NCBI RefSeq assembly: GCF_035751725.1
Contig: NZ_CP142104.1
Coordinates: forward strand, 2,914,001-2,978,000
From: Pseudomonas frederiksbergensis
GTDB taxonomy: Bacteria > Pseudomonadota > Gammaproteobacteria > Pseudomonadales > Pseudomonadaceae
Direction of reading: 5' to 3'
DNA length: 64,000 bases
Shown here: positions 24,000-44,775 of the stretch, one piece after another
Layout: every line of letters begins with the position of its first letter
Position numbering within the stretch: the stretch's first letter is position 1
Translations under genes and position numbers: made by a program
Notes under the pieces: model-generated
Told to the model about the DNA's origin: nothing
Seen by the model: the letters and a program-made list of their open reading frames with translations, nothing else
Database searches by the model: none

Positions 24000-24150
24000 G
24001 CAACCTATCCTGAAAGATATACACCGATAGAAAAGTATAGTTTCCTGACAGTTCATTTGGATAGCAATGCGGCGTTGCGTGTCTGCCAAAGGTGAATAAG
24101 GCCTTAAAAATCAATAATCTAATGGTTTCATGGGCCGCCCAAGAAGGAAG

Positions 24151-24167
24151 TTGGCATGCTGCTCGCT
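24151..24167 (+). promoter_or_regulatory. Sigma-54 promoter of rtcBA
   Basis: TTGGCATGCTGCTCGCT matches the sigma-54 consensus TGGCACG-N4-TTGCA with GG and GC exactly 12 bases apart; the -12 box has one mismatch. It is 37 bases before the rtcB start, so transcription would begin near 24178. RtcR is encoded divergently. The stretch 24000-24150 contains an IR TATAC-N12-GTATA (24018-24039) that could hold the activator site or the rtcR promoter. Confidence 0.75.
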
Positions 24168-24203
24168 ATGGAGCTCCCACACAAAATACCAAGGAGCGAA
24201 ACA

Positions 24204-25430: not shown

Positions 25431-25433
25431 TTA

Positions 25434-26465
25434 ATGAGCCAGGATCTGATTCTGATCGACGGCGCCCATGGAGGAGGGCAGGTGCTGCGCACCGCCCTCA
25501 GCCTTTCCATCATTACCGGTCGACCGTTTCGAATGACGGAGATACGCGGTAAGCGCTCCCGTCCCGGATTGTTGCGCCAGCACCTCACTGCCGTGCGAGC
25601 TGCGGCTGAGATTTGTGGCGCAAGGATCCACGGGGTGGAACTCAACTCGACGGCCATCGAATTCCGGCCTGCAAGCGTAAGGGCAGGGGACTATTCATTT
25701 GCAATCGGAACTGCCGGCAGCACGATGTTGGTGTTGCAGACCCTGTTGCCTGCGCTCCTGCAAGCGGATGGACCCAGTACCGTCCGGATTAGCGGGGGGA
25801 CGCATAACCCGGCCGCGCCGCCCTTCGATTTCATCCAGAAGGCGTGGCTGCCCTTGATCCAGCGCATGGGAGCGCGGGTGGAATTGGCGCTGCTCAGGCA
25901 TGGATTCGTACCGGGTGGAGGCGGCTTGGTAGAGGCCACCGTACGACCTTCGGCCCTCAAGCCGCTGACGTTGGATGGGGAAATGGAACCTATCACCATT
26001 GTCTCGGCTGGCGCGCTGGTTTCGGCCCTTCCTGCCTCGATTGGCAACCGGGAGCTTGATCGGCTCGCGGCAAGTCTCGGGCTGGAGCGGCGCCATCTGT
26101 CCGTTACCGACCTGGGGGATCAGGCGGGACCAGGCAATGTCGTATCGATCACAGCCATGAAGGCCGGGATTACCGAGGTGTTCTCCAGCATCGGGCAAGA
26201 ACGCATGCGTGCGGAGCAGGTCGCTGACGAGGCGATCGACGAATTCACAGCGTGGGCTCAATCGAATTCAGCGGTAGGCAATCACTTGGCGGATCAACTG
26301 ATGCTGCCGATGGCAATTGCCGGTGCGGGCAAACTCACCACGGTGCGCCTGAGCAATCACATCCGAACGAATGCCGCTGTTATCCAGCAGTTCATCGATC
26401 TGGATGTGCGGCTGACGGAAGGTAGCAATCAGGCCAGTATTGCTGTTGGGCTGCATCCTCGCTAG
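25434..26465 (+). CDS. rtcA: RNA 3'-terminal phosphate cyclase RtcA
   Basis: A 343-residue cyclase that converts RNA 3'-phosphate ends into 2',3'-cyclic phosphates through an RNA-adenylate intermediate. The N-terminus IDGAHGGGQVLRTALSLS, the RPGLLRQHLTAV stretch, the ISGGTHNPAAPPFDFI signature, FVPGGGG and the C-terminal nucleotidyl-acceptor His in GNHLADQLMLPMA are all present. It starts 3 bases after rtcB and completes the rtcBA RNA end-repair operon. Nothing in the sequence suggests damage to the gene. Confidence 0.95.
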   Translation: MSQDLILIDGAHGGGQVLRTALSLSIITGRPFRMTEIRGKRSRPGLLRQHLTAVRAAAEICGARIHGVELNSTAIEFRPASVRAGDYSFAIGTAGSTMLVLQTLLPALLQADGPSTVRISGGTHNPAAPPFDFIQKAWLPLIQRMGARVELALLRHGFVPGGGGLVEATVRPSALKPLTLDGEMEPITIVSAGALVSALPASIGNRELDRLAASLGLERRHLSVTDLGDQAGPGNVVSITAMKAGITEVFSSIGQERMRAEQVADEAIDEFTAWAQSNSAVGNHLADQLMLPMAIAGAGKLTTVRLSNHIRTNAAVIQQFIDLDVRLTEGSNQASIAVGLHPR

Positions 26466-30827: not shown

Positions 30828-30852
30828 AGAGGAGGGTGCGCCTCACCCCTCT
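30828..30852. terminator. Bidirectional hairpin terminator between convergent genes
   Basis: AGAG-ga-GGGTG pairs with CACCC-CTCT around a 5-base loop (cgcct), with a two-base bulge; ATTTGTTTGG follows on the + strand. It sits between the permease stop and the stop codon of the convergent reverse-strand gene, and overlaps the latter. Confidence 0.6.
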
Positions 30853-31555
30853 ATTTGTTTGGTGTGAGTTCTTGGACGACCTCACGCATCATGTCCTCGG
30901 AAACTTCAATTTCTTGCCGGAATTTACTGGGGCGCAGGACATGGTCCTCATTGTACTTGGCGTCTATCCCGGTACCGAACGCTTCGTCTCTCTGAATCAT
31001 TTTATTTAAAGCTTCAACGACGCTGCTATCGCTGGTGGCAATCTTGTGCGCGCCTACGTAGCCATCCACGAGCGTTTCGGCGTAACCGTGTATTTCGCAA
31101 TTATGATAAAGATACAGCTTCATCATGCAGGCAAATGAGTGGGCGAAAGATCTTTTGGTGCCGCTTGGCAGTGCGGAGTTACAACCATAGATTTTTATCT
31201 TGCCGGCAAAAGACCGGTTCAATAAAACGTCTTTTTTCAACGTTCTGGCCAGAACCAATGCAGAAATGGACTCGCTGTCGGCAGAGGCCTCCTTGGATAT
31301 GATGGTACTTCCGGGAGCGCAATGTCCAAAAATATAGATGACCTCGTCAGGGCCTATACAGCTCTGCAAACGTACTGCGAGACGTTTTTTCGAAGGTCCA
31401 TCGAAGGTGAAGAATTCGTAATCGGCCAGGTCCGTCCTTTCTGTGTTGGCTTCAATTTTTGAGCGTCTGGCCTTCCGCCAGTTTTCCCTGGTATTGACCC
31501 ATTGCTTGGATTGTGCAGAAAAGGGACATATCACGATGCGTGAATGTTTGCACAT
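30851..31555 (-). CDS. Orphan protein with C80/caspase-like His/Cys pattern
   Basis: A 234-residue protein with an excellent GGAGGAA site before ATG 31555. No signal peptide or membrane segment is seen. Two hydrophobic strands each end in a potential catalytic residue: EVIYIFGHCAPG with His78 and GKIKIYGCNSALPSG with Cys125. This strand-GH, strand-GC arrangement is that of clan CD cysteine peptidases, especially the C80 toxin autoprocessing and caspase-like groups. A late IHGYAETLVDGY also fits. The body is basic in the N-terminal 45 residues. Base composition is AT-richer than the flanks, suggesting acquisition. No toxin, immunity or secretion gene is adjacent. The peptidase call is an inference from pattern only. 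Confidence 0.45.
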   Translation of the reverse strand: MCKHSRIVICPFSAQSKQWVNTRENWRKARRSKIEANTERTDLADYEFFTFDGPSKKRLAVRLQSCIGPDEVIYIFGHCAPGSTIISKEASADSESISALVLARTLKKDVLLNRSFAGKIKIYGCNSALPSGTKRSFAHSFACMMKLYLYHNCEIHGYAETLVDGYVGAHKIATSDSSVVEALNKMIQRDEAFGTGIDAKYNEDHVLRPSKFRQEIEVSEDMMREVVQELTPNK

Positions 31556-31860
31556 AGCGCTTCCTCCGAGCGAAAAATCTCCATCCTGAAGAAATTCTAG
31601 CCAAGCCTGGCGGTTTAGCTATCGACGCTGAAGCGTTCGGCTTTTACGAATTGACCTGGATGGGGGTGGAGGCCTCATGGCGAGATATAAGAGACAAACA
31701 TCCTGTTTAACATAATATACATTATGCGCATATAGCGTTTAATATCGCAGCCCATCACAGGCCACTTTCAGCACACACATCCCGGTCTGGCCTCAAGATC
31801 CGAGGCTGGGATGCTGACAGTCAGCAATCCCATCACCTACGTGAACACCCGGTCAAAACC
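31556..31860. other. AT-rich intergenic region
   Basis: A 305-base stretch between two reverse-strand genes. It is AT-rich, with a small dyad CATAAT-atac-ATTATG at 31711-31726. I see no coding potential, tRNA or repeat here; it presumably holds the promoter of the C80-like gene. Confidence 0.6.
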
Positions 31861-32457
31861 TTATAGCGGCTCGGCCGTTTCTATCAGCGAATTAAGCACC
31901 AGTTTGATCTCCGTCGCGGGATCCTTGTGTCCCTGCAGAATCAAGCCTTCCGACAGCGCGGTAAATGTCTTGGCGAGTGCTGCGTACGCCAACGGAGGTT
32001 TCTTTCCGGCATGATTGAAAATAATCGTAATCAGCTTACCCAAGGCCTCGCTGTTTTCTTCATGCAGGTCGTAATAATGCTTCGCGAACTCCTCATCACG
32101 CAGAGCGATCAACTGCATCTCCGCATCAAGAACGGCGCAATTGGTATTGTTCTTAAGGGTGTCGATATAGGCATTCAAACCTTGGGTGAGCTGTTCCGCC
32201 GAGTAGCCGCCGGCCAAGGTATTGCCCAAGCGATCGATCTCCACCCGTTTGAAGCGCTGGGTCAGTTGCAGGAGCAGTTCCGACTTGCTTGAGAAGTTTG
32301 AAAAGAATGCGCCTTTTGAATAACCGGCCTCTTCGGAGATCGTGTTTACACTGGCGGCGTGAAAGCCTTTCTTGATCATCAGTTCTGTTGCGGTATCGAA
32401 TAACTTGTCTCTTGTTATTTGCTGGCTTTCCTCTCGACCTAATCTTTTCTTAATCAC
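31861..32457 (-). CDS. TetR-family regulator, probable cluster regulator
   Basis: A 198-residue TetR protein. The helix-turn-helix lies at about 20-65 (LFDTATELMIKKGFHAASVN, then EEAGYSKGAFFSNFSSKSEL). The C-terminal part has the helix pattern of TetR ligand domains with a DAEMQLIALRDEEFAKHYYDL segment. It is divergent to the biosynthetic operon beginning at 32916, across a 458-base region with a palindrome next to its own start. A role as repressor of that operon, perhaps responding to its product, is a reasonable inference given that AfsA-type butyrolactones classically act on TetR-type receptors. Confidence 0.85.
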   Translation of the reverse strand: MIKKRLGREESQQITRDKLFDTATELMIKKGFHAASVNTISEEAGYSKGAFFSNFSSKSELLLQLTQRFKRVEIDRLGNTLAGGYSAEQLTQGLNAYIDTLKNNTNCAVLDAEMQLIALRDEEFAKHYYDLHEENSEALGKLITIIFNHAGKKPPLAYAALAKTFTALSEGLILQGHKDPATEIKLVLNSLIETAEPL

Positions 32458-32915
32458 GCCCTCGGCTCCTTTGGCCCGAAAATCTATAGTTGTAACTAGA
32501 TGAAACCACTCTACGATTCAGCCTGCGAACAGATGTTTGCACCTTAACATCCACCTAAGCTCTTTTGCATTTAAAGTTTCAGAAGAGCCATGTGAGTACC
32601 GTGTACTTTTACTCTGGCGGACCGCAGAAAAACGCCGATTTCAGCGAGGCCCCGTCCCCCTTCTGCCATGTCCACTCTGCCCTCGAAATCTCCATAACCG
32701 CCTCGGTGACTGAGAAATGGCGCCATCAGTATGACGCAAATTCGCTGAGACCTCACGTCTCAGCCCCGTGCTAGACGCTTCGCTATTATTTTATTCATGA
32801 AATACCGCTTGATTTTCAGATACCGAATGGTTTTTACTTGCGCCGTTGGATGAGCCAACACCTGTCCGGACGATGACATTGCCCGAGCAGGTACCTCACA
32901 GGGAGCAGGATTTTA
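32458..32915. promoter_or_regulatory. Divergent regulatory region of the biosynthetic operon
   Basis: A 458-base non-coding stretch, AT-richer than the genes around it. It contains the 12-bp palindrome TAGTT-gt-AACTA at 32487-32498 near the TetR start, and a perfect 7-bp stem GCTGAGA...TCTCAGC at 32744-32764. A CTATTATTTTATTC stretch near 32780-32795 could hold a -10 element of a forward promoter. The leader to the first gene at 32916 would then be about 120 bases. No credible ORF is present. Confidence 0.55.
32487..32498. promoter_or_regulatory. Palindrome next to the TetR gene
   Basis: TAGTTGTAACTA is a perfect 12-bp palindrome (TAGTT-gt-AACTA) about 30 bases upstream of the TetR start, a typical autoregulatory operator position. 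Confidence 0.5.
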
Positions 32916-33932
32916 ATGGAATATGCCTTCGTCACAGGCGCTACGGGCCTGCTTGGCAACAACGTTGTCCACGCGCTGTTGAAACGCAACATCAAGGTCA
33001 AGGCGCTTGTGCGTTCCGTGGAAAAAGCCAAGAAGCAATTTGGCGGCCTGCCGGTCGAGTTCGTCGAGGGCGATATGCTTGACGTGAAGGCATTCAGCCA
33101 CGCACTTGAAGGCTGCGATGCGTTGTTTCACACCGCCGCGTACTTTCGCGATAGCTATAAAGGTGGGAAACACTGGCAGAAACTCTATGACACTAACGTA
33201 ACGGGCACCGAGCGCCTGTTGCAGGCCGCCTATGCTGCGGGTATTCGGCGTGCAGTCCATACCTCTTCGATTGCAGTGTTGAAAGGCGCCAAAGACCAGG
33301 TCATCGACGAAACCATGTCCCGGGACGAGTCGGAAGCCGACGATTACTATTTGAGCAAGATCCTCTCTGAGCAAAAGGTTCGGGAGTTCCTGGCTGTGCA
33401 TCCGGACATGTTTGTTGCAATGGTGTTGCCCGGCTGGATGTTCGGCCCCGGGGACATTGGTCCCACCTCCTCCGGTCAGTTCCTGCTGGATTTCGTTGGG
33501 CGAAAGCTGCCGGGCGTTCTCCCAGGGAGCTTTTCAGTCGTAGATGCGCGGGACGTCGCGGAGCATCAAATCGCGGCGATTACCCGCGGTAGATCGGGTG
33601 AGCGTTATCTGGCAGCCGGCAATCATATGGATATGAAGAGTATTTTCCGCGCACTGTCCAACGTCAGTGGGATCAAGGCACCTGAGCGAGCTGTGCCATT
33701 GTTCATGTTGCGCGTTATCGCGTTTGCCTATGAGTGCTATTACCGGGTCACGAAGAAGCCGGTGCTGATCAGTACTTCCACGGTCAAGCTCATTGAACAA
33801 GAACAAGGACGAACGCACTTCAGTCACAGCAAGAGTTCCAGCGAACTTAAATGCGCGTTCCGCCCTGTCAGTGAAACACTGACCGATACCTTGGACTGGT
33901 ATCGCAATAACAACTATATAAAGCTCAACTAA
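32916..33932 (+). CDS. NAD(P)-dependent epimerase/reductase (extended SDR)
   Basis: A 338-residue extended SDR of the dihydroflavonol reductase / 3-beta-hydroxysteroid dehydrogenase-like group. The Rossmann fingerprint TGATGLLG is at 7-14, the active-site HTSSIAVLKG at about 115-124, and Tyr144/Lys148 (YYLSK) form the YxxxK pair. PGWMFGPGD follows. It probably reduces or oxidises a keto group on a pathway intermediate. It is the first gene of the operon that continues with the ligase after a 67-base gap. In the AfsA model it could reduce the butenolide or ketone stage; that role is inferred from context. Confidence 0.82.
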   Translation: MEYAFVTGATGLLGNNVVHALLKRNIKVKALVRSVEKAKKQFGGLPVEFVEGDMLDVKAFSHALEGCDALFHTAAYFRDSYKGGKHWQKLYDTNVTGTERLLQAAYAAGIRRAVHTSSIAVLKGAKDQVIDETMSRDESEADDYYLSKILSEQKVREFLAVHPDMFVAMVLPGWMFGPGDIGPTSSGQFLLDFVGRKLPGVLPGSFSVVDARDVAEHQIAAITRGRSGERYLAAGNHMDMKSIFRALSNVSGIKAPERAVPLFMLRVIAFAYECYYRVTKKPVLISTSTVKLIEQEQGRTHFSHSKSSSELKCAFRPVSETLTDTLDWYRNNNYIKLN

Positions 33933-33999
33933 ACCAAATAGCCTGCCTCTGCAGTACTTTTTTATCTGGCCATAACTTCAAGGATTGAGAGGTTGGTGA

Positions 34000-35505
34000 A
34001 TGAAAAGCCTTACCTGTAAACAAGGTTTCCTGCATCGTTTCGTCGATTTTTCAGAGAGCCATCCGGACAATGTTGCGATCAGGAATCTGGACGCGGACGA
34101 AACCGTCACTTATCGGGCGTTGCGCATCCGCGCCGAAGAGTGCAACGGCCTCCTCGATGGCCTGGGCATATCACCCGGCGTAAAAGTCGCACTGGTCTTG
34201 CCCAACGGCGTTGATTTCATCGCGTATTACCTGGCGATCATCGGACGTGGCGCTATTCCCGTGATCTTGAATCACAAATTGACCGCATTCGAGCTTAGCA
34301 ACGTGCTGAGGATTGCCCAGCCAGTGCTGATCGTCACCACCGACACGTTGTGTGAACAACACCTGGAAACATTGCAGCCGTTCCGGTCCCTGATACTGAG
34401 TACCGGCGATGAGCCTTCGGCGCCATTACCAAAAAACGCAGTGATCGCGTCCGGCCTACCACGCCAGGCATTGCCCTTGTCGTTGCCGGAAGACGATGCA
34501 ATCGTCTCGGTCCAGTTCACGTATCGGGGCGTCGGCAAACCCCTGGCCGTGACTCACCGCTACCTTGATCTGACGCAGTCAAGTGATGGCCTGCACGAGC
34601 AGTTTCATCCCCAGGGCATCGGTTCGGTCCACTTGGTGACGCTGCCGCTGTATGCCATTTTCGGCCTGTCCGTGATGATGGTGTTTCCGTTGAGCATCGG
34701 TGCCACGTTGCTGATGACCAACACCCTGCTCAACCGCGACCTGGCGCAAGTCTTGTCTGAGCACCAAGTCACCTTTGCCTGCCTGGTGCCGGATGTCATT
34801 CGGTATTTCAACGCCCGGCTGGTAAAACGCAAAGGCGCGCTGTTGCCCCTGCACCCTCGACTGATGATCTATTCCGGCGGCAGCCATCTGCCCGCCGATG
34901 AAGCCGAGAAGCTTGGAAAACTGCTGGGTTGCGCTCCTGTCCTGCAAGGCTACGGCTTGACCGAAAGCATGCCGGTGATCGTCCAAAGCTCCGTTGGCGC
35001 GGTTCATCGTGGCGCCATGGGCCAACCCATCAGCGGCGTAGAACTGAGGGTTGTCGACGCGCACGGACGGGACGTCGCGGCTGGGGCCATTGGTGAACTG
35101 TGGATCCGTGGACCGATGGTCACGCCAGGCTATGAGGATGAGCCGCAGCTCAATGCCTATTCTTTCCGTGACGGTTGGTTTCATACCGGTGACCTGGTCT
35201 GGCGCGACGACGAAGGTCACGTGTTTTTCTACTGCCAACGCCTGCGCATTTCAAAAATCAAGGCGCAGATGGTCGACCTGGCGGAGATCGAGTCCATCGC
35301 GCTCCAGCATCCCGACGCGGTACGCGCCAAGGCCTACATCGTCCCAGACCAAAAAGAAGTCAACGTATTGCACTTGTCCGTGGAGGGCAACGGCGGCCTG
35401 AGCCAGAACGATGTATCCACCCTGCTAGCCCGATATCTCTCTGGTTTCAAACTGCCCAAATTCATCGAGATTGTCCCTCTCAAGGAAGAGATTCATGCAC
35501 GCTGA
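34000..35505 (+). CDS. Acyl-AMP ligase-like protein with altered catalytic motifs
   Basis: A 501-residue ANL-superfamily protein. Core motifs YGLTES (318-323), GELWIRGPMVTPGY and GWFHTGDL (392-399) are intact. The P-loop, normally TSGTTGxPKG, reads TYRGVGKPLAV (174-184), so Ser/Thr positions and the PKG Lys are lost. The C-terminal catalytic Lys of the PxTxxGKxxR motif is absent: the protein ends VPLKEEIHAR. These losses would impair adenylation in a standard enzyme. It may instead bind or transfer an acyl chain, or do only the thioester step. It overlaps the HAD gene by 11 bases. The natural partner would be the carrier protein at 37976-39058. Confidence 0.8.
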   Translation: MKSLTCKQGFLHRFVDFSESHPDNVAIRNLDADETVTYRALRIRAEECNGLLDGLGISPGVKVALVLPNGVDFIAYYLAIIGRGAIPVILNHKLTAFELSNVLRIAQPVLIVTTDTLCEQHLETLQPFRSLILSTGDEPSAPLPKNAVIASGLPRQALPLSLPEDDAIVSVQFTYRGVGKPLAVTHRYLDLTQSSDGLHEQFHPQGIGSVHLVTLPLYAIFGLSVMMVFPLSIGATLLMTNTLLNRDLAQVLSEHQVTFACLVPDVIRYFNARLVKRKGALLPLHPRLMIYSGGSHLPADEAEKLGKLLGCAPVLQGYGLTESMPVIVQSSVGAVHRGAMGQPISGVELRVVDAHGRDVAAGAIGELWIRGPMVTPGYEDEPQLNAYSFRDGWFHTGDLVWRDDEGHVFFYCQRLRISKIKAQMVDLAEIESIALQHPDAVRAKAYIVPDQKEVNVLHLSVEGNGGLSQNDVSTLLARYLSGFKLPKFIEIVPLKEEIHAR

Positions 35506-36106
35506 CAGCACGCAACCGGTACTGGCCGTTTTCGATTTCGACGGTACATTGACCGACAGGCACACCTTCTGGCGCTACATGCGCTTCATTGTTGGCACCC
35601 GGGCATTCTGGCTCAGGATCATTCCCCTGTTGCCGAAAATGCTCAGCGTCATTCTCGGGATCACTCCGTTGATGCAGGCACGTCTGGCGTTCATTGCCTG
35701 TTACCTCGGCGGTTTGACGGTCGAGCAAGAGCGCGAGCACGCCAGGTATTTCATCACCGAGCAATTGCCGCTCTGGCTCAGACCTGAAGCGATGCGGCGC
35801 CTGCAATGGCACCAATCCATGGGGCACGTCACCGCGCTCGTCAGCAACTCACCAGAAAACTACCTGATTCCCTGGGGACAGGCCGTGGGTTTCGATCATG
35901 TCTGCGGCACCCGCCTGGCGGTCGCCGGGAACAAGCTGACGGGAGGGATATCCGGTACCAATTGTGTCGACCGGGAGAAAGTCGCTCGGCTCAGGGACTG
36001 CATGAGCAACCTCGACGATTTCTACATCTACGCCTATGGCGATTCGTCAGGTGACGCAGCGCTGCTGGGCCTCGCCAATTCTCCCTTCTACAGAAACTGG
36101 TACTGA
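35495..36106 (+). CDS. HAD-IB family phosphatase
   Basis: A 203-residue HAD subfamily IB protein from ATG 35495, behind AAGGAAGAG and overlapping the ligase gene. Motif I VFDFDGTLTD, motif II LVSNSPE, motif III Lys in VDREKVARL and motif IV YAYGDSSGD are all intact, so it should be an active phosphohydrolase. Hydrophobic stretches at about 28-75 form the cap helices (IIPLLPKMLSVILGI). In A-factor-type biosynthesis a phosphate ester left from the C3 unit has to be removed, and this enzyme is well placed to do so; that link is inference. The next gene starts 3 bases after the stop. Confidence 0.85.
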   Translation: MHADSTQPVLAVFDFDGTLTDRHTFWRYMRFIVGTRAFWLRIIPLLPKMLSVILGITPLMQARLAFIACYLGGLTVEQEREHARYFITEQLPLWLRPEAMRRLQWHQSMGHVTALVSNSPENYLIPWGQAVGFDHVCGTRLAVAGNKLTGGISGTNCVDREKVARLRDCMSNLDDFYIYAYGDSSGDAALLGLANSPFYRNWY

Positions 36107-36109
36107 TCG

Positions 36110-37873
36110 ATGAACACTCTGAGCACCTTGGCCCAAACGCCTTGCAAACAGCCGGGCAGCGCTCCGACGGTGATGATCGTCGGTGCCGGTCCTATCGGCC
36201 TGTCGCTGGCGATCATGTTGAAGCAATGGGGGGTTTCTTTCCGCATCATTGAAAAGAACGCGGGTCCTTCCACCGCGACCAAGGCGATGGCCATCCATTC
36301 CAGGACCCTGGAGATTTTTCGTGACCTGGGCATTGCCGACCAGGCGATCGCCGAGGGGTTCACCATCAATCAGTTCTCGGTCCAGTCAAACGCCAAGCGC
36401 GTGCTGAACTATAACTTTTCCTACCTGGATGCTACCTATCCCCTGCTACTCAGCCTGCCGCAGCCGCAGACGGAAAAGCTCCTGTTGCAGCGGTTGAATG
36501 AGTTGGGTGCGGACGTCGAATGGAACACTGAACTGGTCGATCTTGAAAACCAGCCTGGGTCCGTGGCGATGACCTTGCGGCACGCCGACGGCCGCGACGA
36601 ATCCTTCTCCAGCCGCTGGGCGGTGGCGTGCGACGGAGCCCGCAGCAATATCCGCAAACGCCTGGGCATGACCTTCGAGGGCTCCTCCTACGATCGTTTT
36701 TTCATGCTGGCCGACGCCGACATCGAGTGGTCCGGCAGCAAGGACGAGGGCGCGTTTTTCCTTGGCGCCCAGGACGGTTATGTCGCGGTTGCGCCGATCA
36801 GCGACCAGTCCCGCTATCGCCTTTTCATCGAGATGCCTTACGACCTGCCACCCGAAGGCGAGCGCCCTCCCCTCACCCTGGAGAATTTCCAGCGGCTGTG
36901 CGAGGGGCGTGGGCAAAAGATGACGCTGTCAAACATTTCATCGACCACCATTGCCTCGTTCCAGCACCGTCGGGTGGAGTCATTGCAGCAGGGCTCGGTC
37001 TTCCTGGTGGGTGACTCCGCGCACATCGGCAGCCCTATCGGCGGCCAATGGATGAACCTGGGCATTTCCGAGGCATACAACCTGGCGTGGAAACTTGCCT
37101 ATGTCGATCAAGGCCTGGCCGATCCATCGTTGCTGGACAGCTACAACGCCGAACGCTATCCGGTGGCCCTTGAAGTGGAAAACACCGCACATCGACTCAC
37201 GGGACTGATCACCGTCAGGCATCCGGCCCTGGTGTGGTTGCGCGATAACGTCCTGCCGCTGTTGAGCAATCGGCAGAAGATCCAGCGCAAGCTGCCGTCG
37301 ATGATCTCCGGGCATCAATACCACTACGGCAAAAGCGAATACATCCAGGAATCGTTGACTCGGCAGCAGCGCTGGAGCTGGAAAAAGAAAGGCAGGCGAA
37401 ACCCGTTCCAGCCACCGGCGCCTCGCGCGGGACAATTGGCACCCGACGTCGAGCTGTGGGAGCGGCAAGGCAAGCAGCCCAAGCGCTTGATCGATCTGTT
37501 CCAGGGATCGTTCACCCTGTTGATCTTCAGCGCGACCGACCAATTTTCTCCGGTGTTGCCGAGCCTTTATTCATTGGCCGCATCGGTAGAGCGAGACTAC
37601 CCGGCCATCAGGGCCTACTGCGTGGTCGACGCGTTGAGCAGCATCGGGCTGCCGGCGGAGCAATCCACCCTGCTCGACCCTGACTGGCGTCTGCACAAGC
37701 GCTACCACGCCAAGGAAGGCACGCTGATGCTGGTTCGTCCCGATGGCTACATCGCCTTCCAGGGCGCCGACGCCGTCACGCTGATGACGTACCTGATCGT
37801 CAGGTCCGGGCTGCGCAAGGGCGTCGGTAAAACACTGTTTAGCGAGATGGATGCGCTGGAACTGCAGCTTTAA
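36110..37873 (+). CDS. FAD-dependent aromatic-hydroxylase-type monooxygenase
   Basis: A 587-residue class A flavoprotein. The FAD-binding GAGPIG is at 25-30, the DG motif ACDGARSNIRKRL at 173-185, and the GD motif GDSAHIGSPIGGQWMNLG at 301-318. The C-terminal about 170 residues have the thioredoxin-like dimerisation domain seen in phenol hydroxylase/MhpA/TfdB-type enzymes (VELWERQGKQPKRLIDLF onwards). It uses NAD(P)H and O2 to hydroxylate an aromatic or enolic substrate. In this operon it is likely a tailoring oxygenase for the polyketide-like product. It starts 3 bases after the phosphatase stop. Confidence 0.87.
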   Translation: MNTLSTLAQTPCKQPGSAPTVMIVGAGPIGLSLAIMLKQWGVSFRIIEKNAGPSTATKAMAIHSRTLEIFRDLGIADQAIAEGFTINQFSVQSNAKRVLNYNFSYLDATYPLLLSLPQPQTEKLLLQRLNELGADVEWNTELVDLENQPGSVAMTLRHADGRDESFSSRWAVACDGARSNIRKRLGMTFEGSSYDRFFMLADADIEWSGSKDEGAFFLGAQDGYVAVAPISDQSRYRLFIEMPYDLPPEGERPPLTLENFQRLCEGRGQKMTLSNISSTTIASFQHRRVESLQQGSVFLVGDSAHIGSPIGGQWMNLGISEAYNLAWKLAYVDQGLADPSLLDSYNAERYPVALEVENTAHRLTGLITVRHPALVWLRDNVLPLLSNRQKIQRKLPSMISGHQYHYGKSEYIQESLTRQQRWSWKKKGRRNPFQPPAPRAGQLAPDVELWERQGKQPKRLIDLFQGSFTLLIFSATDQFSPVLPSLYSLAASVERDYPAIRAYCVVDALSSIGLPAEQSTLLDPDWRLHKRYHAKEGTLMLVRPDGYIAFQGADAVTLMTYLIVRSGLRKGVGKTLFSEMDALELQL

Positions 37874-37975
37874 GTCGCGACTGCCTTTGCCTCTTGATGA
37901 CAGGGCCCCGGCGCGGGCCCTGGCATTCGACTATCGATTCAGAACACCTACCTATTCAGGGTTAAGGAGAACCTC

Positions 37976-39058
37976 ATGCGCTTGCAGCTTAACGACGTCG
38001 TGCAGGAATTCATCGTGTCCAACGGAAAAATAGCCCATAGCTATTTCTCCCTTTCGGAAAAGATCATCGATTCGCTGTGCGAATCCAACATCGCCAAGGA
38101 ATCGATCCTGATGCGCCTGCTGGAACAGGCGGAAACGGTCACGGCACATTATTTCAATGCCCATCAGCAGGTGCTCGAGGGCGTCTATGCCCATGGCATT
38201 GAAGCACCCGTCGGTAAAAGCGTCGCGACGCTCGAGCCGGTACAGGGGCATTCACCAGTCCTGCCAGCGGCGCCTGTCGCCGAGCAACCGGCGGCGCCCA
38301 ACTACGCGCAATGGCTGCGCGCCGAAATAAGCAAAGTCACAGGGTTCAGGAACGAACAAATCGATCTCGACCAGAGCTTTGAAAGCCTGGGCATCGACTC
38401 CCTGGGGCTGGTAGACATCTTCGAATCGTTGGCCCAGCACTTTCCGGACAAGAAGGACCTGACCTCGGCGCTGTTCGACGCCCCGACCCCAACGGCATTG
38501 CTCGCCAGGCTCGAAGCCGATGCGCATGCGCCCGCCGAAGGTATAGAGGCCTGGGTGATCGCACAGTTGGCGGTCATGACCGGTTTCACTGTTGAGCAGA
38601 TTGACAGCGAACAAAGTTACGAAAGCCTGGGAATGGACTCGTTGGTGCAGTTGGACTTCCTCGAAGCGGTTGTCGCTCAGTGGCCACAGCTCAAGGCCAG
38701 GAGCAGCGAGCTGGCCAACGCCAAATCTGCCATGCAAACCGTTGCCTTGATTGAAGACATGCTCGGCAACGCCGAGGTGCCCGGCGCTATTCCCGACATG
38801 CCTGCAGCCGCCGCCACCCGCTCCGACACGCCGATCAGCGATGCGCTTTTCGATGCCCTCGCGCCGTTGGTTCCACAAGCTGCCCAATCATTGGACATCC
38901 AGACGCCCTTCGCACAATTGGGGCTCAACGGTTTCGACCGGGAAGCCCTTTGCCAGTCAATGGCGCAGGCAACCCCCGCCAGTGAGTTCGCCGGCGAAGC
39001 CTTGATGTCGCGCCGCACGCCACAAGATGCGCTGTCGCTCCTGGCGAGAATGGGCTGA
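37976..39058 (+). CDS. Triple acyl carrier protein, third domain without Ser
   Basis: A 360-residue protein. An N-terminal region of about 80 helical residues (about 1-80) resembles no carrier and may be a docking domain. Three carrier-like repeats follow: residues about 108-182 with ESLGIDSLGLVD (Ser142), about 188-262 with ESLGMDSLVQLD (Ser222), and about 285-357 with AQLGLNGFDREA, where Gly319 replaces the phosphopantetheine Ser. Linkers are rich in Pro/Ala. The first two should be loaded by a phosphopantetheinyl transferase and carry the growing chain; the third is probably structural. It immediately precedes the KS-AfsA gene, its natural partner. Confidence 0.85.
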   Translation: MRLQLNDVVQEFIVSNGKIAHSYFSLSEKIIDSLCESNIAKESILMRLLEQAETVTAHYFNAHQQVLEGVYAHGIEAPVGKSVATLEPVQGHSPVLPAAPVAEQPAAPNYAQWLRAEISKVTGFRNEQIDLDQSFESLGIDSLGLVDIFESLAQHFPDKKDLTSALFDAPTPTALLARLEADAHAPAEGIEAWVIAQLAVMTGFTVEQIDSEQSYESLGMDSLVQLDFLEAVVAQWPQLKARSSELANAKSAMQTVALIEDMLGNAEVPGAIPDMPAAAATRSDTPISDALFDALAPLVPQAAQSLDIQTPFAQLGLNGFDREALCQSMAQATPASEFAGEALMSRRTPQDALSLLARMG

Positions 39059-39142
39059 CGCCTTAGGGCAAGCGCAGCCAGCACATGGAATGGAAACCGG
39101 ATGGTCGACAGGTCACCCGCTTAGAGTAGTCAGGAGACAGGT

Positions 39143-42100
39143 ATGAGTGGCGCGGTTACAACAGACGCCGAGTTGTGTTTCAGCGCAATGGCCGGCGAAT
39201 TCCCGGGGGCGCCTTCGATGGAGGCCCTCTGGCAGTTACTTTCCCAGGGCCGGATCGCGCCGATCCAGGCGATGTCGGCACGTTGGGAGCTGGACAGGCA
39301 GGCGATATTCTCGGCAAAGACTGGCGAGAAGGACCGTACTTACCTCGACAGCGCGTTTTGCCTGACCGACGACGCTTCGATCCCTTCGCGCCATGACGGT
39401 CGGCAGGTCGCCATCGGCAAGAAAGTGCTCCAGGCGTTGCTCACCGAACTGGCCGCCCAGGGCTCGGTGCCGGATACCGGGCGCACGGCATTGATCGTCG
39501 CAACCTCTTGGAGCGATGAAAGCTATTTCGCGACCGGAACGACGACCAACACCGCCGTGCCGCTCGGTTTTACACCGGGCGAACAAGTGGCTGAACTGGC
39601 CCGCGCGCTTGGCTTGGGTGGGCCGGCGTTATCGGTGGACACCGCCTGCAGTTCCTTCCCTTATGCAATCGATATGGCCAAGGCGTTGCTCGACAGCGGG
39701 CAGGCGGACAACGCAATCGTGATGGCCCTCAACACCGTCCTGCCACCGGCGCTGTTCCTGGGCTTCTCGCAACTGACGGCTTTCTCCGCGCGGGCCAGCA
39801 TGCAGGCGTTCGGCGAGGACGCCGACGGCATCGTGCCGGGAGAATGTGCGGCAGCGTTCCTGATCGAGCCCGTCTGCGCAGCCTTGGCCGCCAAGCGCCA
39901 GCCCCTGGGTGTCCTGCGCGCTTTGGGCTTGTCTGCCGACGGTGCCGAAGGCTCGGTGTTCGCCCCCGGCAAGCAGGCCCAGTTCTCAGCCTATCAACGT
40001 GCCTATCGCGAGCTCGATCCAGGCAGCGTGGACTATATCGAGACCCATGGCACCGGCACCCCGTTGGGTGACGCGACGGAGTTGGCTTCGCTGCAAAGCT
40101 TCTTCGCGCCCCATCGCCCGGCCGACCAGAAATTGACCATCGGCTCGATCAAGTCGGTGATCGGTCACCCGCTGGCCGCCGCAGGAGGCGCTTCACTCGC
40201 CAAGGCCTTGATGATCCTGCGCCACAAGGGCATCCCGCCCCAACCTGACTATCGGCCCAGCGCAAAAGTCGACGGGACTTGCCTGCGCCTTGCCACGCAG
40301 CAGGTACAACCCTTGGCGGAACGTCAGTCGGCGATCCGTATCGGCATTTCCAGTTTCGGCTTTGGCGGTGCCAACGCGCACCTGGTGGTGGACGAGTACG
40401 TTGCCGCCGAGCGCCCCGTCGCGGCCCGTGTCGTGCCCGGCGTGTTGACGCTGGACCTGGCCATTGTCGAGGCGGAAGCGGCGTTCGGCGCCTGCGATTC
40501 GCTGCAATCATTCAAGCAACAGCTCGACCAATCTGGAGCCCCGTCCGTGACGTTCCCTTATGGACGTTTCGTTGATTACCGCGGCGACGTGACTCCACCG
40601 TTGTCGGGGAAATTCCTCGCCCGGGACCACATGATCGATATCGCCGGTTTCGGCATGGGCCCCAAACCCCTGGCCCATGTCGATCCGTTCAAGCTGTTGA
40701 TCACCGATCGGGTCAACCATCTGCTGCGGCGTTTGCCAGGCGTGGCGGGCTCGGTCGGCACCGCCATGGTGATGTGCTGCAACATGGGTGGGGAACGGTT
40801 CAGCAACGCGTACAGCAGCGCCGAGCATTTTTACGCCCGCGGCCAGGGCACGCCGCCAGGTGTTGAGGTCACCGACGTGGCGACCATGCTGCCGAACATG
40901 CTGTCCGGCTACCCGGCGCAGATTTTCGATTTCAAGGGCTTCCACCAGACGCTGGCCGGCACGCCAGGGCTGTTCTGGCACACGCTGCTGGCTTCGCCAC
41001 AATGGTTCGGGCAAGGCATCTCGACGCTCCTGCTCGGCGCCGGCCGCTTTATCAGTAGCGAGATCGAAATCGACCGAGCCCGGCGCAGCAGAGCGGTGCA
41101 AGGTGAAGGGCTTGGGCTGATCGCCCTGCGTCCCTACCATCCAGAGGCCGGCGAAAAACCACTGCTGGTGATTCGCTCGGCGGTCCTTGCCCATGCTGCG
41201 CAATCCCTTGACCAAGCCTGCCGGTTGGTGGGGAAAGCGATCGGCGAGTACCCGCATCAGCACGTCTGCGAACTGGCAGCCGATGGGGTTCAAGCCAGCG
41301 GATCGCTTCGAGAAAAGACAGGATTCCTGGCGGAGGCCAGCGGTATCGAAACCCTGCTGGCCGTGACCTTGAATTCATCGGTTCACTCGGTGATCGAGGT
41401 CCGCGAAGCCGGCAAGCCATTGATGTGGCTGTTCACTGAACGGCTTCGGGAATGGACACCCGAGGCAGAGCCGGCCCCTGCCATAAAGCATCCGTTCACG
41501 TTGCGGTTTGCCCATCCGGTGCCTCACTCGGCACAGGAAGTCATCGCGCCGACACGTCCCGGCCACGTTGTCCGCGAACCGCAACACGACGGTGTCGACG
41601 TGCTGCAACTCAGCGATATGCTGACCAGCACCGTCCTGGCCGGTTTGCGTGTTCGCGTTCGCGCCATGGAAGGGCTTTTCGCCTTGCAGCGGGGATCCGG
41701 ATCCCAGCGGCCGACCAACTGGCAACGGCGTGCGCAAAACACCGTAATCAAGCACATCCAGCGCGACGCCCACTCGCTGCGCGCCGAGCTGGTGGTGGAC
41801 GAAACGCACCCCTACTTCTTCGATCATCCGCTGGATCACATCCCCGGCATCCTCTTGCTCGAAGGCGTCATGCAATTGGCTGAGCTGGCCATGCCTTCAC
41901 TCAACGGACGGGTTGCCTACGTCAAAACGCTGAGCATCAGGTTCCAGCAATACGTGCAAAAGGAAGGGACCATCGAGCTGCACCTGGAGCAAGAGCAGGA
42001 CGCCCTCTTCCAGGCCAAGGTGGTCCAGGGCGGCAAGCTGATGTGCACCTGCACCCTGGGATTGGCCTACAGCTCGGCCTTCGAAATCTCGCCGCCGGGC

Positions 42101-42553
42101 GAATTCACGGCCCGTCGTTGTGGCGACAAGGCCCTGTTGCACAAGGCCAGGGCAGAAAACGTCATTGTCAGCGACATGAGCGGCGTTGCCCAAGGGTTGA
42201 GTGTCGATACGATCAAACTGCCGGATGGGCATTTTTTCCATGAAGGCGACCCCGCGCATTACTCGATGGTGTATTTCCTCGAAGTCGCGCGCCAGTGCTA
42301 CATGCAGATCGCCCACTGCCATTTGCGGATCCCCCTCGATACGCCCATGAACCTGTTGACCTTGAGTTTCACCCTGGACCGGCCCATCCCTCGGAACAGC
42401 CCGCTGTCGCTGGCGCCGCAAGCCGGCCTGGATGCGCAACTGCAATCGTTCAAGACCAACCGCATCCATATCGACCTGTTCAACCGGGGCGAAAAGATCG
42501 GCCAGGCCAACATCACCGCCCAGGTGCTGAGTCGAACCGCGCCGGCAGCCTGA
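39143..42553 (+). CDS. Ketosynthase / degenerate KS / tandem AfsA-type hotdog fusion
   Basis: An 1136-residue multidomain enzyme. Residues about 8-420 form a ketosynthase with the full triad: Cys169 in VDTACSSF, His302 in ETHGTGTPLGD and His342 in SVIGHPLAAAG. Residues about 470-770 look like a second KS fold without the active Cys (MLPNMLSGYPAQIFDFKGFH), like a chain-length factor. The C-terminal 270 residues hold two hotdog repeats of the AfsA family. One has HPYFFDHPLDHIPGILLLE at 889-907, close to the AfsA motif HPxxxxxPxDHVPGMLLLE. The second begins LLHKARAENVIVSDM (999-1013) and contains YFLEVARQC. AfsA couples a beta-ketoacyl chain to dihydroxyacetone phosphate, so this may make and release a butenolide. 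No AT or KR domain is present. The architecture is unfamiliar to me. Confidence 0.8.
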   Translation: MSGAVTTDAELCFSAMAGEFPGAPSMEALWQLLSQGRIAPIQAMSARWELDRQAIFSAKTGEKDRTYLDSAFCLTDDASIPSRHDGRQVAIGKKVLQALLTELAAQGSVPDTGRTALIVATSWSDESYFATGTTTNTAVPLGFTPGEQVAELARALGLGGPALSVDTACSSFPYAIDMAKALLDSGQADNAIVMALNTVLPPALFLGFSQLTAFSARASMQAFGEDADGIVPGECAAAFLIEPVCAALAAKRQPLGVLRALGLSADGAEGSVFAPGKQAQFSAYQRAYRELDPGSVDYIETHGTGTPLGDATELASLQSFFAPHRPADQKLTIGSIKSVIGHPLAAAGGASLAKALMILRHKGIPPQPDYRPSAKVDGTCLRLATQQVQPLAERQSAIRIGISSFGFGGANAHLVVDEYVAAERPVAARVVPGVLTLDLAIVEAEAAFGACDSLQSFKQQLDQSGAPSVTFPYGRFVDYRGDVTPPLSGKFLARDHMIDIAGFGMGPKPLAHVDPFKLLITDRVNHLLRRLPGVAGSVGTAMVMCCNMGGERFSNAYSSAEHFYARGQGTPPGVEVTDVATMLPNMLSGYPAQIFDFKGFHQTLAGTPGLFWHTLLASPQWFGQGISTLLLGAGRFISSEIEIDRARRSRAVQGEGLGLIALRPYHPEAGEKPLLVIRSAVLAHAAQSLDQACRLVGKAIGEYPHQHVCELAADGVQASGSLREKTGFLAEASGIETLLAVTLNSSVHSVIEVREAGKPLMWLFTERLREWTPEAEPAPAIKHPFTLRFAHPVPHSAQEVIAPTRPGHVVREPQHDGVDVLQLSDMLTSTVLAGLRVRVRAMEGLFALQRGSGSQRPTNWQRRAQNTVIKHIQRDAHSLRAELVVDETHPYFFDHPLDHIPGILLLEGVMQLAELAMPSLNGRVAYVKTLSIRFQQYVQKEGTIELHLEQEQDALFQAKVVQGGKLMCTCTLGLAYSSAFEISPPGEFTARRCGDKALLHKARAENVIVSDMSGVAQGLSVDTIKLPDGHFFHEGDPAHYSMVYFLEVARQCYMQIAHCHLRIPLDTPMNLLTLSFTLDRPIPRNSPLSLAPQAGLDAQLQSFKTNRIHIDLFNRGEKIGQANITAQVLSRTAPAA

Positions 42554-42610
42554 CGTCCCGAGCTGTCCTTTTTCGAGCCCGACCATGCGCCTGACCGGCG
42601 AGGTAAACCC

Positions 42611-43087
42611 ATGAACGATGTCACCGTAAAAATCATAGTCAAGTCGCCGCCTGCGGTCATTTGGAACATCTGGAGCGATTTCCCGCATGCGCCACTTTGG
42701 GACACCGATGTGCGCCATTGCGAACTCGATGGCCCGTTCCAGGCCGGGACGCTTGGCAAGTGCGTTCTCAAGAACGGCCTGCGAATGCCATTGAGACTGG
42801 AAGCGGTGGAGTTCCAGGAAAGCTACCGCAACAGCGCCAGGTTGCTGTGGATGGACTTGGAGTTCGACCACCGGCTGCGCCGGCTTTCACCCAGTGAAAC
42901 CCAAGTCATCCATACCGCCAGGATCGCCGGCCCGTTGAGTTTCCTCTACCGACGGCTGATCCGCAAAGCGTTGACCGCGGCAATGACTACCGCTCTCGAC
43001 AACCTGGCCACGCTCGCTGAGCGGCGGGCCAACACCAGCGGCACGCCCGCCAGCGAGAAACCGGAAAGCCATTTGCACCTTGTATGA
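42611..43087 (+). CDS. SRPBCC-family polyketide cyclase-like protein
   Basis: A 158-residue START/Bet v1-like (SRPBCC) protein. The N-terminal MNDVTVKIIVKSPPAVIWNI, followed by WSDFPHAPLWDTDV, is the usual first strand and helix pair, and the long C-terminal helix (KALTAAMTTALDNLATLAER) closes the ligand cavity. Such proteins act as aromatase/cyclases in polyketide pathways or as lipid carriers. An AGGTAA site precedes the ATG. Position 57 bases after the KS-AfsA gene suggests it guides cyclisation or dehydration of the product. The last codons overlap an upstream in-frame start of the next gene. Confidence 0.8.
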   Translation: MNDVTVKIIVKSPPAVIWNIWSDFPHAPLWDTDVRHCELDGPFQAGTLGKCVLKNGLRMPLRLEAVEFQESYRNSARLLWMDLEFDHRLRRLSPSETQVIHTARIAGPLSFLYRRLIRKALTAAMTTALDNLATLAERRANTSGTPASEKPESHLHLV

Positions 43088-43161
43088 CGCAACGTCGGGC
43101 GTTGCGACTTGAGCGCTGGCGCCCGCTGATCTTTTTGATAACGGAACACTTCGGACCGAGC

Positions 43162-43860
43162 ATGAACCTACTGAAAAACACTCAATACCTGGCGATGGGC
43201 ATCATTGGCATGAGCGCTGTGGTGCCGGCATTGAGCTGCGCCGACACGCTTGGCCCCTACGCCAGCCTGATGGGCGGCGCGAACTGGGTATCGGCGCAAG
43301 ACCTGAACCAGAACGACCTGGATTTCGTCGAGATGGAATTCAACCAGCCGCTCGACTCCGGCTATGCCACCGGGCTGGCCCTGGGCTGGCGATTCCCGGT
43401 CGGGCTGAGACCCGAAATCGAACTGAGCTACCGCAAGAACACCCTGACCCAATTCAATAATCGCGTCTATGAAGGCGGCGGGAGCATCGACGGCAAAGGC
43501 GAAGAGGAAGCCACGAGCCTGATGGCCAACCTCTGGTACGACTTCATGAACCTTCCTGCACCGTTCAACCGGTTCACCCCGTACATCGGCGGCGGCCTGG
43601 GCTATGCCACCTTGACCGTCAGCGGCCTGGAGGCCGGGGGCGTCGAATTCGGCGGAACCCATCGCGACACGGTGTCGGCTTATCAACTGGGCGCGGGAGT
43701 CGGTTACGAGTTCACCGAGAACTGGTCCATGTCGGTGGATTACCGGTGCCTGAAAACCAGCGAAGCACACTTCGGTGACATCGAGCGCCTGCCCCAGGGC
43801 GACGTGAGCACCGAATACGAAGCCCAATCGGTGATGCTCGGCCTGCGTTACTGGCTCTGA
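43162..43860 (+). CDS. Outer-membrane beta-barrel protein
   Basis: A 232-residue protein if started at ATG 43162 (MNLLKNTQYLAMGIIGMSAV), which gives a clean signal peptide ending near ALSCA-D. The mature part alternates hydrophobic and polar residues in strands (GYATGLALGWRFPVGLRPEI, YIGGGLGYATL, YQLGAGVGYEFTENWSMSVD) and ends in a C-terminal aromatic/Leu strand (GLRYWL), as in OmpA/OmpW-like small barrels. It closes the biosynthetic operon and may carry the lipophilic product across the outer membrane. An upstream ATG at 43084 would add 26 residues without a signal sequence and is less likely. Confidence 0.78.
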   Translation: MNLLKNTQYLAMGIIGMSAVVPALSCADTLGPYASLMGGANWVSAQDLNQNDLDFVEMEFNQPLDSGYATGLALGWRFPVGLRPEIELSYRKNTLTQFNNRVYEGGGSIDGKGEEEATSLMANLWYDFMNLPAPFNRFTPYIGGGLGYATLTVSGLEAGGVEFGGTHRDTVSAYQLGAGVGYEFTENWSMSVDYRCLKTSEAHFGDIERLPQGDVSTEYEAQSVMLGLRYWL

Positions 43861-43911
43861 TGCGACAGGCCGGCGCCCTGCCCAGGCCGGGCGCCGATTT
43901 GCGTAGCGGGC

Positions 43912-44775
43912 TCAGGACGCAGCCGTCTCTCGCGCCAGGCCGAGGAACGCCGACGGCAGCCGAGCCTGGCGGCGCTCCTTGAGGCAATAGAGGTACTCGG
44001 CGATCAGCGGCGCGCCTTCCAGCTCGACGACTTTGAGCTGCGGGTTCTCCGGCACTTCATGACGGGCGATGATGCTGATGCCGATGTTGCGCAGGACCGC
44101 TTCGCGAATCGACTCGCGACTGCCAATTTCCAACAATGGCCCGGTCGCCACGCCGGCTTCTCGTAGCAAGGTTGTGGTGAGCGCGCGGGTGGTCGAGCCT
44201 TTTTCCCGCATCAGCAGGCAGTGCCCGGCCAATGCACCGGGTGCCACACGATCGTGGCTGGCCAACGGGTGGCTGCGGTGCATCGCCACGACGAGCGGGT
44301 CGTGGCCCAATACCAATCGGGTCAACCGAGCGTCTTCGACCAGTTGCGAGGACGCGGCCAGGTCCACGCGGTACTCCTCCAGCGCCTCGATGACCTGCAG
44401 CGAGTTGCCGATTTCCAGAGTCACTTCGCACAGGGGAAACTGATCGCGAAAGCCCTTGATGATATCGAGCACGTAGTACGGCGCCGTGGCGCCAATTCGC
44501 AGCGTGCCCTGCACCTGGCCGCTGTTGCGCAGGAAAAACTCGATGTCGGCTTCCTGCTGCAACAGCTTCTGCACCATCGGCAACAACTGCGCGCCTTCGT
44601 CGCTGAGCGTCAGGCGCCGGCCGCCGCGAAAGAACAGTTCGACGCCGTACTGGGCTTCCAGATTGCGGATCTGCGTGGTCACCGTCGGCTGGCTGAGCCC
44701 CAGTTTCTTGGCCGCCTGGGTGACGCTGGCCAGGCGAGCAACCATGTGGAAAGACTTCAGCTCGGCGCTGAGCAT
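43912..44775 (-). CDS. LysR-family regulator of the oxyanion importer
   Basis: A 287-residue LysR protein from ATG 44775 (CTGGAG upstream). The DNA-binding domain reads LKSFHMVARLASVTQAAKKL, then SQPTVTTQIRNLEAQYG. The effector domain includes GTLRIGATAPYYVLDIIKGF and GISIIARHEVPENPQ. It resembles CysB/CbbR-like regulators next to phosphonate-type importers. The gene is divergent to the substrate-binding protein at 44936, so it probably controls that operon. Its 3' end faces the barrel gene of the biosynthetic operon, with 51 bases between. Confidence 0.86.
   Translation of the reverse strand: MLSAELKSFHMVARLASVTQAAKKLGLSQPTVTTQIRNLEAQYGVELFFRGGRRLTLSDEGAQLLPMVQKLLQQEADIEFFLRNSGQVQGTLRIGATAPYYVLDIIKGFRDQFPLCEVTLEIGNSLQVIEALEEYRVDLAASSQLVEDARLTRLVLGHDPLVVAMHRSHPLASHDRVAPGALAGHCLLMREKGSTTRALTTTLLREAGVATGPLLEIGSRESIREAVLRNIGISIIARHEVPENPQLKVVELEGAPLIAEYLYCLKERRQARLPSAFLGLARETAAS

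Follow-up and report, generated by a model that had tools for sequence, protein, structure and literature searches.

AfsA chemistry makes the classic hormones of Streptomyces. AfsA itself condenses a beta-ketothioester with dihydroxyacetone phosphate (DHAP) to give a phosphorylated butenolide (PMC7756379), and its use as a release step by a polyketide synthase (PKS) was reported as unprecedented only in 2020, for gladiostatin and gladiofungin of Burkholderia gladioli (PMC7756379, PMC7756420). As described there, the AfsA-like PBS domain of the gladiostatin system condenses 3-ketothioesters with DHAP in vitro to a phosphorylated butenolide (PMC7756379), gladiofungin is lost upon deletion within the AfsA domain (PMC7756420), and candidate phosphatases lie in both clusters (PMC7756379, PMC7756420, PMC10574677). 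In 2021 an appendix named a 'KS-AfsA domain' protein (KS, ketosynthase) in 'PKS 1' of Pseudomonas Ps664, a cluster without an assigned product (PMC8719888), the sole use of 'KS-AfsA' in the indexed parts of the open-licence literature. Here, we analyse a stretch of 64,000 nucleotides from Pseudomonas frederiksbergensis (contig NZ_CP142104.1, positions 2,914,001 to 2,978,000; hereafter the window), in which one gene encodes a protein of 1136 residues that an original prediction had read as a KS fused to tandem AfsA-type hotdog domains, without a described counterpart. The 2020 and 2021 reports precede that claim of novelty, and the chemistry itself is not unprecedented. What sets the protein apart is its layout and hotdog order, in comparison both with the ScbA-type enzymes examined and with PKS release systems as their publications describe them. 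The protein is probably an iterative synthase of a KS and a chain length factor (CLF) that carries a reordered butenolide-synthase domain, as judged from its sequence.

Comparison with described systems extends to several features of the locus. As in GdsF and GlaE, the gladiostatin and gladiofungin PKS, KS chemistry ends in a PF03756 release domain and the cluster holds phosphatase and oxidoreductase genes. According to the sections describing them, GdsF and GlaE are multimodular trans-acyltransferase (trans-AT) lines and GdsF ends in a didomain of acyl carrier protein (ACP) and PBS, whereas the window protein has one KS and one dead KS, with its ACPs in a separate gene; unlike GdsF, it carries no ACP ahead of its release domain, as Pfam finds no PP-binding domain within the KS-AfsA protein, the ACPs being encoded at 37976-39058 instead. 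The hotdog reversal discussed below is measured relative to ScbA. The Ps664 cluster likewise has a KS-AfsA protein in a Pseudomonas PKS setting, but its appendix entry reads A / T / KS-AT-KR-T-KS-AT-KR-T / KS-AfsA / TE, whereas no AT, PKS-type ketoreductase (KR) or thioesterase (TE) was found among the genes of the window operon. With the gamma-butyrolactone synthases AfsA, ScbA and BarX of Streptomyces the protein shares two PF03756-type hotdogs and conserved residues in each of the two halves; unlike it, those enzymes stand alone and have the halves in the opposite order (7/7 annotated ScbA/BarX), and the window protein scores under the ScbA cut-off. With PfaC and PfaA it shares a KS followed by a dead KS-like domain, C-terminal hotdogs, and tandem ACPs in a neighbouring gene. 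The tail of PfaC is DH-DH, that is, FabA-like dehydratase hotdogs (PF07977), unlike the window hotdogs, which score with the AfsA and not the FabA family (PF07977 16.9 bits on the first repeat, the only one listed, against a cut-off of 23), and no AT, PKS-type KR or enoylreductase (ER) was found in the operon genes. The succession of a KS and a triad-less KS-like domain is present as in PfaC, which is described as having KS-CLF, and PfaB has a KS' that is shorter and without the triad (PMC12895367). No study of this operon was found among open-licence papers (preprints excluded), nor, in the accessible sections of the open-licence literature on such systems, any mention of the reversed hotdog order or of the dead KS.

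Architecture of the KS-AfsA protein

The open reading frame was confirmed, together with the two motifs quoted in the original prediction, HPYFFDHPLDHIPGILLLE at residues 889-907 and LLHKARAENVIVSDM at residues 998-1012. Its N-terminal KS is complete, as had been proposed: PF00109 (103.2 bits) and PF02801 (106 bits) both score above cut-off, and the triad Cys169, His302 and His342 is invariant in all 45 rows of an alignment (A1) of the window protein (P0001) with 44 of its 78 relatives; among those omitted were P0002, which is identical, P0031, which is truncated, P0079, a weak match, and many close relatives. A second alignment (A2) joined 38 of these relatives to the window piece. When compared with PDB sequences, the best 60 of 149 rows were all synthases matched via the N-terminal KS, and the 50 matches listed from a fold comparison of the full-length model were KS-led, a method that barely probes the other parts of the protein, so that we claim no fold match for the middle domain or the hotdogs.

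The prediction had seen the KS and the hotdogs and overlooked what lies between them: roughly 400 residues holding a dead KS. Neither Pfam nor NCBIfam has a match within residues 436-849. Nevertheless, hhalign aligned the middle domain over 291 columns to a profile built from 37 KS sequences of other loci (97.1% in one direction, 97.0% in the other), against at most 2.2% in 11 control comparisons (three other operon enzyme families and reversed alignments); the 37 were those of 66 loci (L037-L102) with at least 380 residues and no stop. In an AlphaFold2 model, by our own reading, the main strands (E) and helices (H) of the domain are ordered as in a KS, minus one helix-strand pair: E434-448, H454-461, H515-529, E540-545, E600-606, H610-623, E628-635 and H640-648, followed by E656-664, E675-682, H689-695, E705-710, H735-743, E748-755 and E758-767. 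The catalytic residues are gone. The KS cysteine aligns to Pro608, in a column without Cys in all 45 rows, the HGTGT stretch falls opposite a gap, and the second KS histidine aligns to Phe728, with His there in 2/45 rows. The middle domain thus very probably has a KS fold without the ability to condense, as in chain length factors and the KS' of PfaB, and may act as the former. A profile of the domain gave only three PDB rows up to E 10, all FabF-type synthases, which at E 0.37-0.42 are not significant and point in the same direction. In the far relatives L034-L036 the middle part is shorter and alignable in its core only. A standalone family was considered and rejected: the three proteins at E <= 0.001 among 8000 candidates scored resemble truncated or disrupted members of the KS-AfsA family.

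The C-terminal hotdogs belong to the AfsA family, as had been predicted. PF03756 finds two AfsA stretches on the whole protein (80.1 bits), and each repeat alone exceeds the cut-off of 24 bits (Table 1). They are two hotdogs but one AfsA unit, judging by sequence, because ScbA/AfsA proteins themselves contain two such hotdogs; the 'tandem AfsA-type domains' of the prediction therefore stand as a count of folds and not of units. The order of the two is reversed, a second feature that had been overlooked. The NF041195 profile aligns backwards, with its C-terminal part on the first repeat and its N-terminal part on the second. Profiles of the two repeats were also run on 17 sequences (seven plasmid ScbA/BarX proteins, two plasmid AfsA-related proteins, seven of 13 further proteins, and the window protein): the order was second-first in 8/8 ScbA-type proteins, comprising the seven annotated ScbA/BarX and P0092, and first-second in the other nine (the window protein, the 'AfsA-related' proteins of S. 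durmitorensis and Aliiroseovarius, and six further proteins, with P0083 and P0084 among the set being pieces of KS-AfsA proteins themselves). Comparison of the halves by blastp concurs wherever they match. A thioesterase-like sequence precedes the hotdogs in P0085 (by Pfam label) and P0087 (by eye). Against PDB sequences, the AfsA part drew a single unrelated row (E 0.019).

Most of the conserved residues of both halves survive the reversal. Compared with the eight ScbA-type proteins, the first repeat keeps H889, D894, H895, D898, H899, P901, G902, E907 and Q911, and the second H1000, H1030, E1047, R1050, Q1051 and H1058. Twelve polar or charged positions (D894, H895, D898, H899, Q911, H1000, K1001, N1006, E1047, R1050, Q1051 and H1058) are invariant in the 45-row alignment, whose rows go as low as 34% identity with the window protein, while the middle domain lost its catalytic residues. 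This conservation makes it very unlikely that the AfsA-type domain survives only as a structural or inactive remnant in an operon making a simple KS/cyclase product, a reading that could call on the loss already suffered by the middle domain of the same chain.

The hotdogs are not a plain FabA/FabZ dehydratase, the outcome which, with no AfsA hit, would have refuted the original prediction: on the first repeat, the only one listed, NF000582 (FabZ) reaches 16.7 bits against a cut-off of 113, and PF07977 is likewise under its own. A subtler alternative is that they serve as the dehydratase of an iterative synthase resembling those for polyunsaturated fatty acids (PUFA), arranged KS-CLF-DH as in PfaC, rather than as a butenolide synthase. 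The likeness to PfaC/PfaA in domain order and neighbouring ACPs speaks for it, as do the hotdog His and Glu and the weak FabA/FabZ score retained by the first repeat, and a Bacteriovoracaceae relative whose upstream gene encodes AT-ACP-ACP-KR. We nonetheless regard it as distinctly improbable, given that both dehydratase models fall short whereas AfsA is above cut-off twice, that the Pseudomonas operon has no PKS-type KR over cut-off (its only reductase candidate, the SDR, scores 19.8 of the required 22.6 bits with the KR model), and that the FabZ-type glutamate E907 is Ala in 5/45 rows.

A conserved biosynthetic operon

The gene lies in an eight-gene biosynthetic operon built around the KS-AfsA protein (Table 1) and probably making a lactone; the original prediction had also missed this gene set. 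Conservation was judged from the gene content of loci L023-L036, those matching beyond the KS out of the best 80 of 570 confirmed loci.

Table 1. Features of the KS-AfsA locus, by position in the window
Feature	Position	Strand	Evidence
Divergent TetR-family regulator	31861..32457	-	PF00440 51.8 bits; 7/9 loci
Extended short-chain dehydrogenase/reductase (SDR; epimerase/3-beta-HSD type), putative reductase	32916..33932	+	PF01370 90.4 bits; 9/9 loci L023-L031
AMP-binding acyl ligase, putative starter activation	34000..35505	+	PF00501 197.7 bits; 9/9 loci
HAD-IB phosphatase (FDFDGTLT motif), putative butenolide-phosphate phosphatase	35471..36106	+	TIGR01490 123.9 bits, cut-off 98.3
FAD-dependent aromatic-type monooxygenase	36110..37873	+	PF01494 253.6 bits, PF21274 30.6 bits; 9/9 loci
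Tandem acyl carrier protein	37976..39058	+	PF00550 62.5 bits, one stretch, residues 112-179; rest by motif
KS - KS-like - AfsA protein, 1136 aa	39143..42553	+	ATG start, ORF confirmed
Ketosynthase domain, residues 11-430, Cys169/His302/His342 intact	39173..40432	+	Pfam and alignment
KS-like domain without catalytic triad, chain-length-factor-like, residues ~434-790	40442..41512	+	hhalign and AlphaFold2 model
First AfsA hotdog, residues ~862-978, FFDHPLDHIPGILLLE motif, matches C-terminal half of ScbA	41726..42076	+	PF03756 48.6 bits; NF041195 positions 189-289
Second AfsA hotdog, residues ~996-1130, LLHKARAENVIV...E..RQ......H, matches N-terminal half of ScbA	42128..42532	+	PF03756 41.7 bits; NF041195 positions 4-147
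Polyketide cyclase/START-like protein	42611..43087	+	PF10604 44.3 bits, cut-off 27.4; 8/8 loci reaching that far
Outer-membrane beta-barrel protein, final gene of conserved set	43084..43860	+	PF13505 56.5 bits, cut-off 28.7; 8/8 loci reaching that far

All nine loci L023-L031 carry genes for the SDR, AMP ligase, HAD phosphatase, FAD monooxygenase and ACP, with the DxDGT motif of the phosphatase kept throughout and the TetR gene linked in seven; in L031, a metagenome-assembled genome labelled Neisseria, the SDR lies on the opposite strand. The cyclase and barrel genes are found in all eight loci that extend far enough (L027 stops inside the KS-AfsA gene, and L032, another contig of the same strain, has both). 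In 18 of the 19 short loci L004-L022 the gene is flanked by the FAD monooxygenase, ACP, cyclase and barrel genes, L022 having the first two only. The barrel gene, then, regularly accompanies the biosynthetic genes; it shares 4 bases with the cyclase gene.

Within the ACP gene, two stretches have the serine motif, the first recognised by Pfam and the second reading GMDSL, followed by a third ACP-like stretch without the serine (GLNGF). This third stretch lacks the serine in all 13 sequences compared, distant ones included, and appears to be conserved and carrier-like without being able to carry; L030 is without the first stretch. Among the operon genes neither AT nor PKS-type KR was found over Pfam cut-off, nor were TE or ER found, leaving the SDR as the sole reductase candidate. 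A beta-lactone/olefin (OleC/OleD-like) pathway built from the SDR and AMP ligase was rejected on the SDR scores of 76.8 and 80.7 against 580 bits (OleD-type) and 240.4 against 367.65 (HpnA). A ScbR-type butyrolactone receptor next door was similarly discarded: the adjacent TetR protein scores 38.6 bits with NF041196 (cut-off 150) and 40.2 with the FasR model. GC content (0.494-0.640 in 2-kb steps over 31000-43999) does not clearly set the operon apart, and its minimum falls at the TetR gene.

Proposed pathway and the released product

Our best explanation, held with moderate confidence, is a stand-alone, probably iterative KS / CLF-like / butenolide-synthase protein that releases a beta-ketoacyl chain onto DHAP within this eight-gene operon. 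The AMP ligase would load a carboxylic acid starter onto one of the tandem ACPs, and the KS and its dead partner domain would extend it with malonyl units provided in trans; both iteration and malonyl supply are assumed here, the operon being without AT or PKS-type KR. Folding of the chain may fall to the cyclase. The double hotdog of AfsA type would then move the beta-ketoacyl group from ACP to DHAP, releasing a phosphorylated butenolide from which the HAD enzyme would strip the phosphate, with the SDR reducing and the FAD monooxygenase oxidising the product. Each catalytic step, DHAP as the nucleophile and the product are what we infer from these gene assignments. DHAP release is held most likely because of the PBS/AfsA precedent, the phosphatase that is required afterwards and the presence of a HAD-IB phosphatase in the operon; the SDR, acyl-AMP ligase and ACPs encoded alongside this phosphatase, and the shared conserved residues, also support AfsA-type release onto DHAP. 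HAD phosphatase genes also lie near the ScbA gene in 2/7 canonical loci, which were read with short flanks, and in none of the other five. By family membership, the FAD monooxygenase and cyclase suggest a cyclised or aromatic product. The original claim that one protein could build and release a butenolide therefore holds in its release step, as the best reading, but not in the sufficiency of a single protein, since the ACPs, the starter ligase and the phosphatase are each encoded apart from it, and no AT or PKS-type KR over cut-off was found in the operon.

Several points weigh against this explanation. Firstly, the window protein reaches 108.7 bits with the ScbA/BarX equivalog model NF041195, below its cut-off of 200, and with a reversed hotdog order the substrate could differ. 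Secondly, the signature residues are not universal: E907 is replaced in the five rows mentioned above, and the two plasmid proteins sharing the hotdog order lack H889, E907 and Q911 (S. durmitorensis) or H1000, H1030, R1050 and H1058 (Aliiroseovarius). A single Glu-to-Ala edit in the gladiofungin AfsA domain is described as leaving the metabolic profile unchanged (PMC7756420). Thirdly, the middle domain aligned unevenly to the KS columns of its own family (8.7%/93.1%, and 73.8%/96.2% in a separate run). Lastly, no HAD relative was found at E <= 1e-5 in the far loci L033-L036, the first of them very short.

Some of these points would fit a domain that releases its chain onto another nucleophile, such as a small alcohol, a phosphorylated C3/C4 compound or water, to give a non-butenolide ester or acid. 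The reversed order and the unmet ScbA score are compatible with it, and both L036 and the S. durmitorensis plasmid gene adjoin PPDK/PEP-binding and ICMT-type genes, with no HAD relative found in L034-L036, so that chemistry may vary across the wider family. For the operon in the window we consider this rather unlikely, as the HAD phosphatase accompanies the gene in 9/9 loci (L023-L031) and the AfsA signature residues are retained.

The family could represent a new class of compact iterative synthase, with a PUFA-synthase- or type II-like KS-CLF pair in which a reversed-order butenolide synthase takes the place of the dehydratase. Gram-negative bacteria would then have a route of their own, separate from modular PKS lines, to butenolides bearing acyl or aryl groups, possibly including a signalling lactone as in Streptomyces; we put this forward tentatively, at somewhat less than even confidence. 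Being compact and tractable, the KS / dead KS / AfsA protein lends itself to the study of butenolide release. It is also likely to be a source of new lactones, and its reversed AfsA halves amount to a natural test of whether function depends on their order. The antiSMASH butyrolactone rule rests on AfsA, and the operon may explain 'butyrolactone' regions without known relatives in Pseudomonas. One such region is described in P. brassicacearum 3Re2-7 (PMC6722718), and may be this operon because P. brassicacearum 48H11 carries it (L023).

Distribution of the family

At least 78 proteins share the layout at E <= 0.001, and 77 of the 78 listed span at least 91% of residues 440-1136, at 29-100% identity; chance is excluded by this coverage and the Pfam scores. 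Named hosts include Pseudomonas, Serratia, Gibbsiella, Klebsiella, Rubrivivax, Betaproteobacteria, Chloroflexi and Planctomycetota. The survey of KS-AfsA fusions across Pseudomonas that the original prediction had proposed gave matches at E <= 1e-40 in 56 of 398 genus genomes. The KS-AfsA protein itself occurs in 22, the window's own included (best E of 0; one split across two contigs), and the listed matches of the remaining 34 are confined to the KS part. With the ScbA profile, 3 of 369 genomes in a class-level survey (own included) matched at E <= 0.001, none above cut-off. A viral origin was considered and set aside, no relative having been confirmed among viral contigs.

Far relatives and neighbouring genes

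In the four far relatives L033-L036 an AMP ligase adjoins the KS-AfsA gene, and L034-L036 have, in addition, a match to the ACP protein in the gene upstream. In L036 this gene encodes AT-ACP-ACP-KR, a pattern suggesting that AT and KR were lost from the Pseudomonas form, or are recruited in trans. This Bacteriovoracaceae locus (L036:6297-20102) holds the AT-ACP-ACP-KR protein, KS-AfsA, an AMP ligase, two ICMT-type methyltransferases, an SDR and a PPDK/PEP-utiliser protein. The AfsA-related gene on the S. durmitorensis plasmid (L103) adjoins ICMT and PEP/pyruvate-binding genes. With ICMT and PEP-type neighbours in both L036 and L103, a second AfsA-related pathway, perhaps dependent on PEP-type phosphotransfer, may be common to two phyla. 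On a plasmid of Aliiroseovarius crassostreae (L104:4016-4918), an AfsA-related gene with the hotdog order of the window protein lies between trpA and FAD oxidoreductase genes, and seven further plasmids of this species also match.

Around the operon, the LysR gene behind the barrel gene belongs, by profile, with a neighbouring phosphonate/selenate-type transporter. A 234-residue open reading frame beside the operon (30851-31555, minus strand) has no Pfam match at E <= 0.01 and no NCBIfam match at E <= 0.001. Elsewhere in the window, an RNA repair operon occupies 22380-26465, with RtcR (794.4 bits, cut-off 650), an RtcB-like gene and RtcA.

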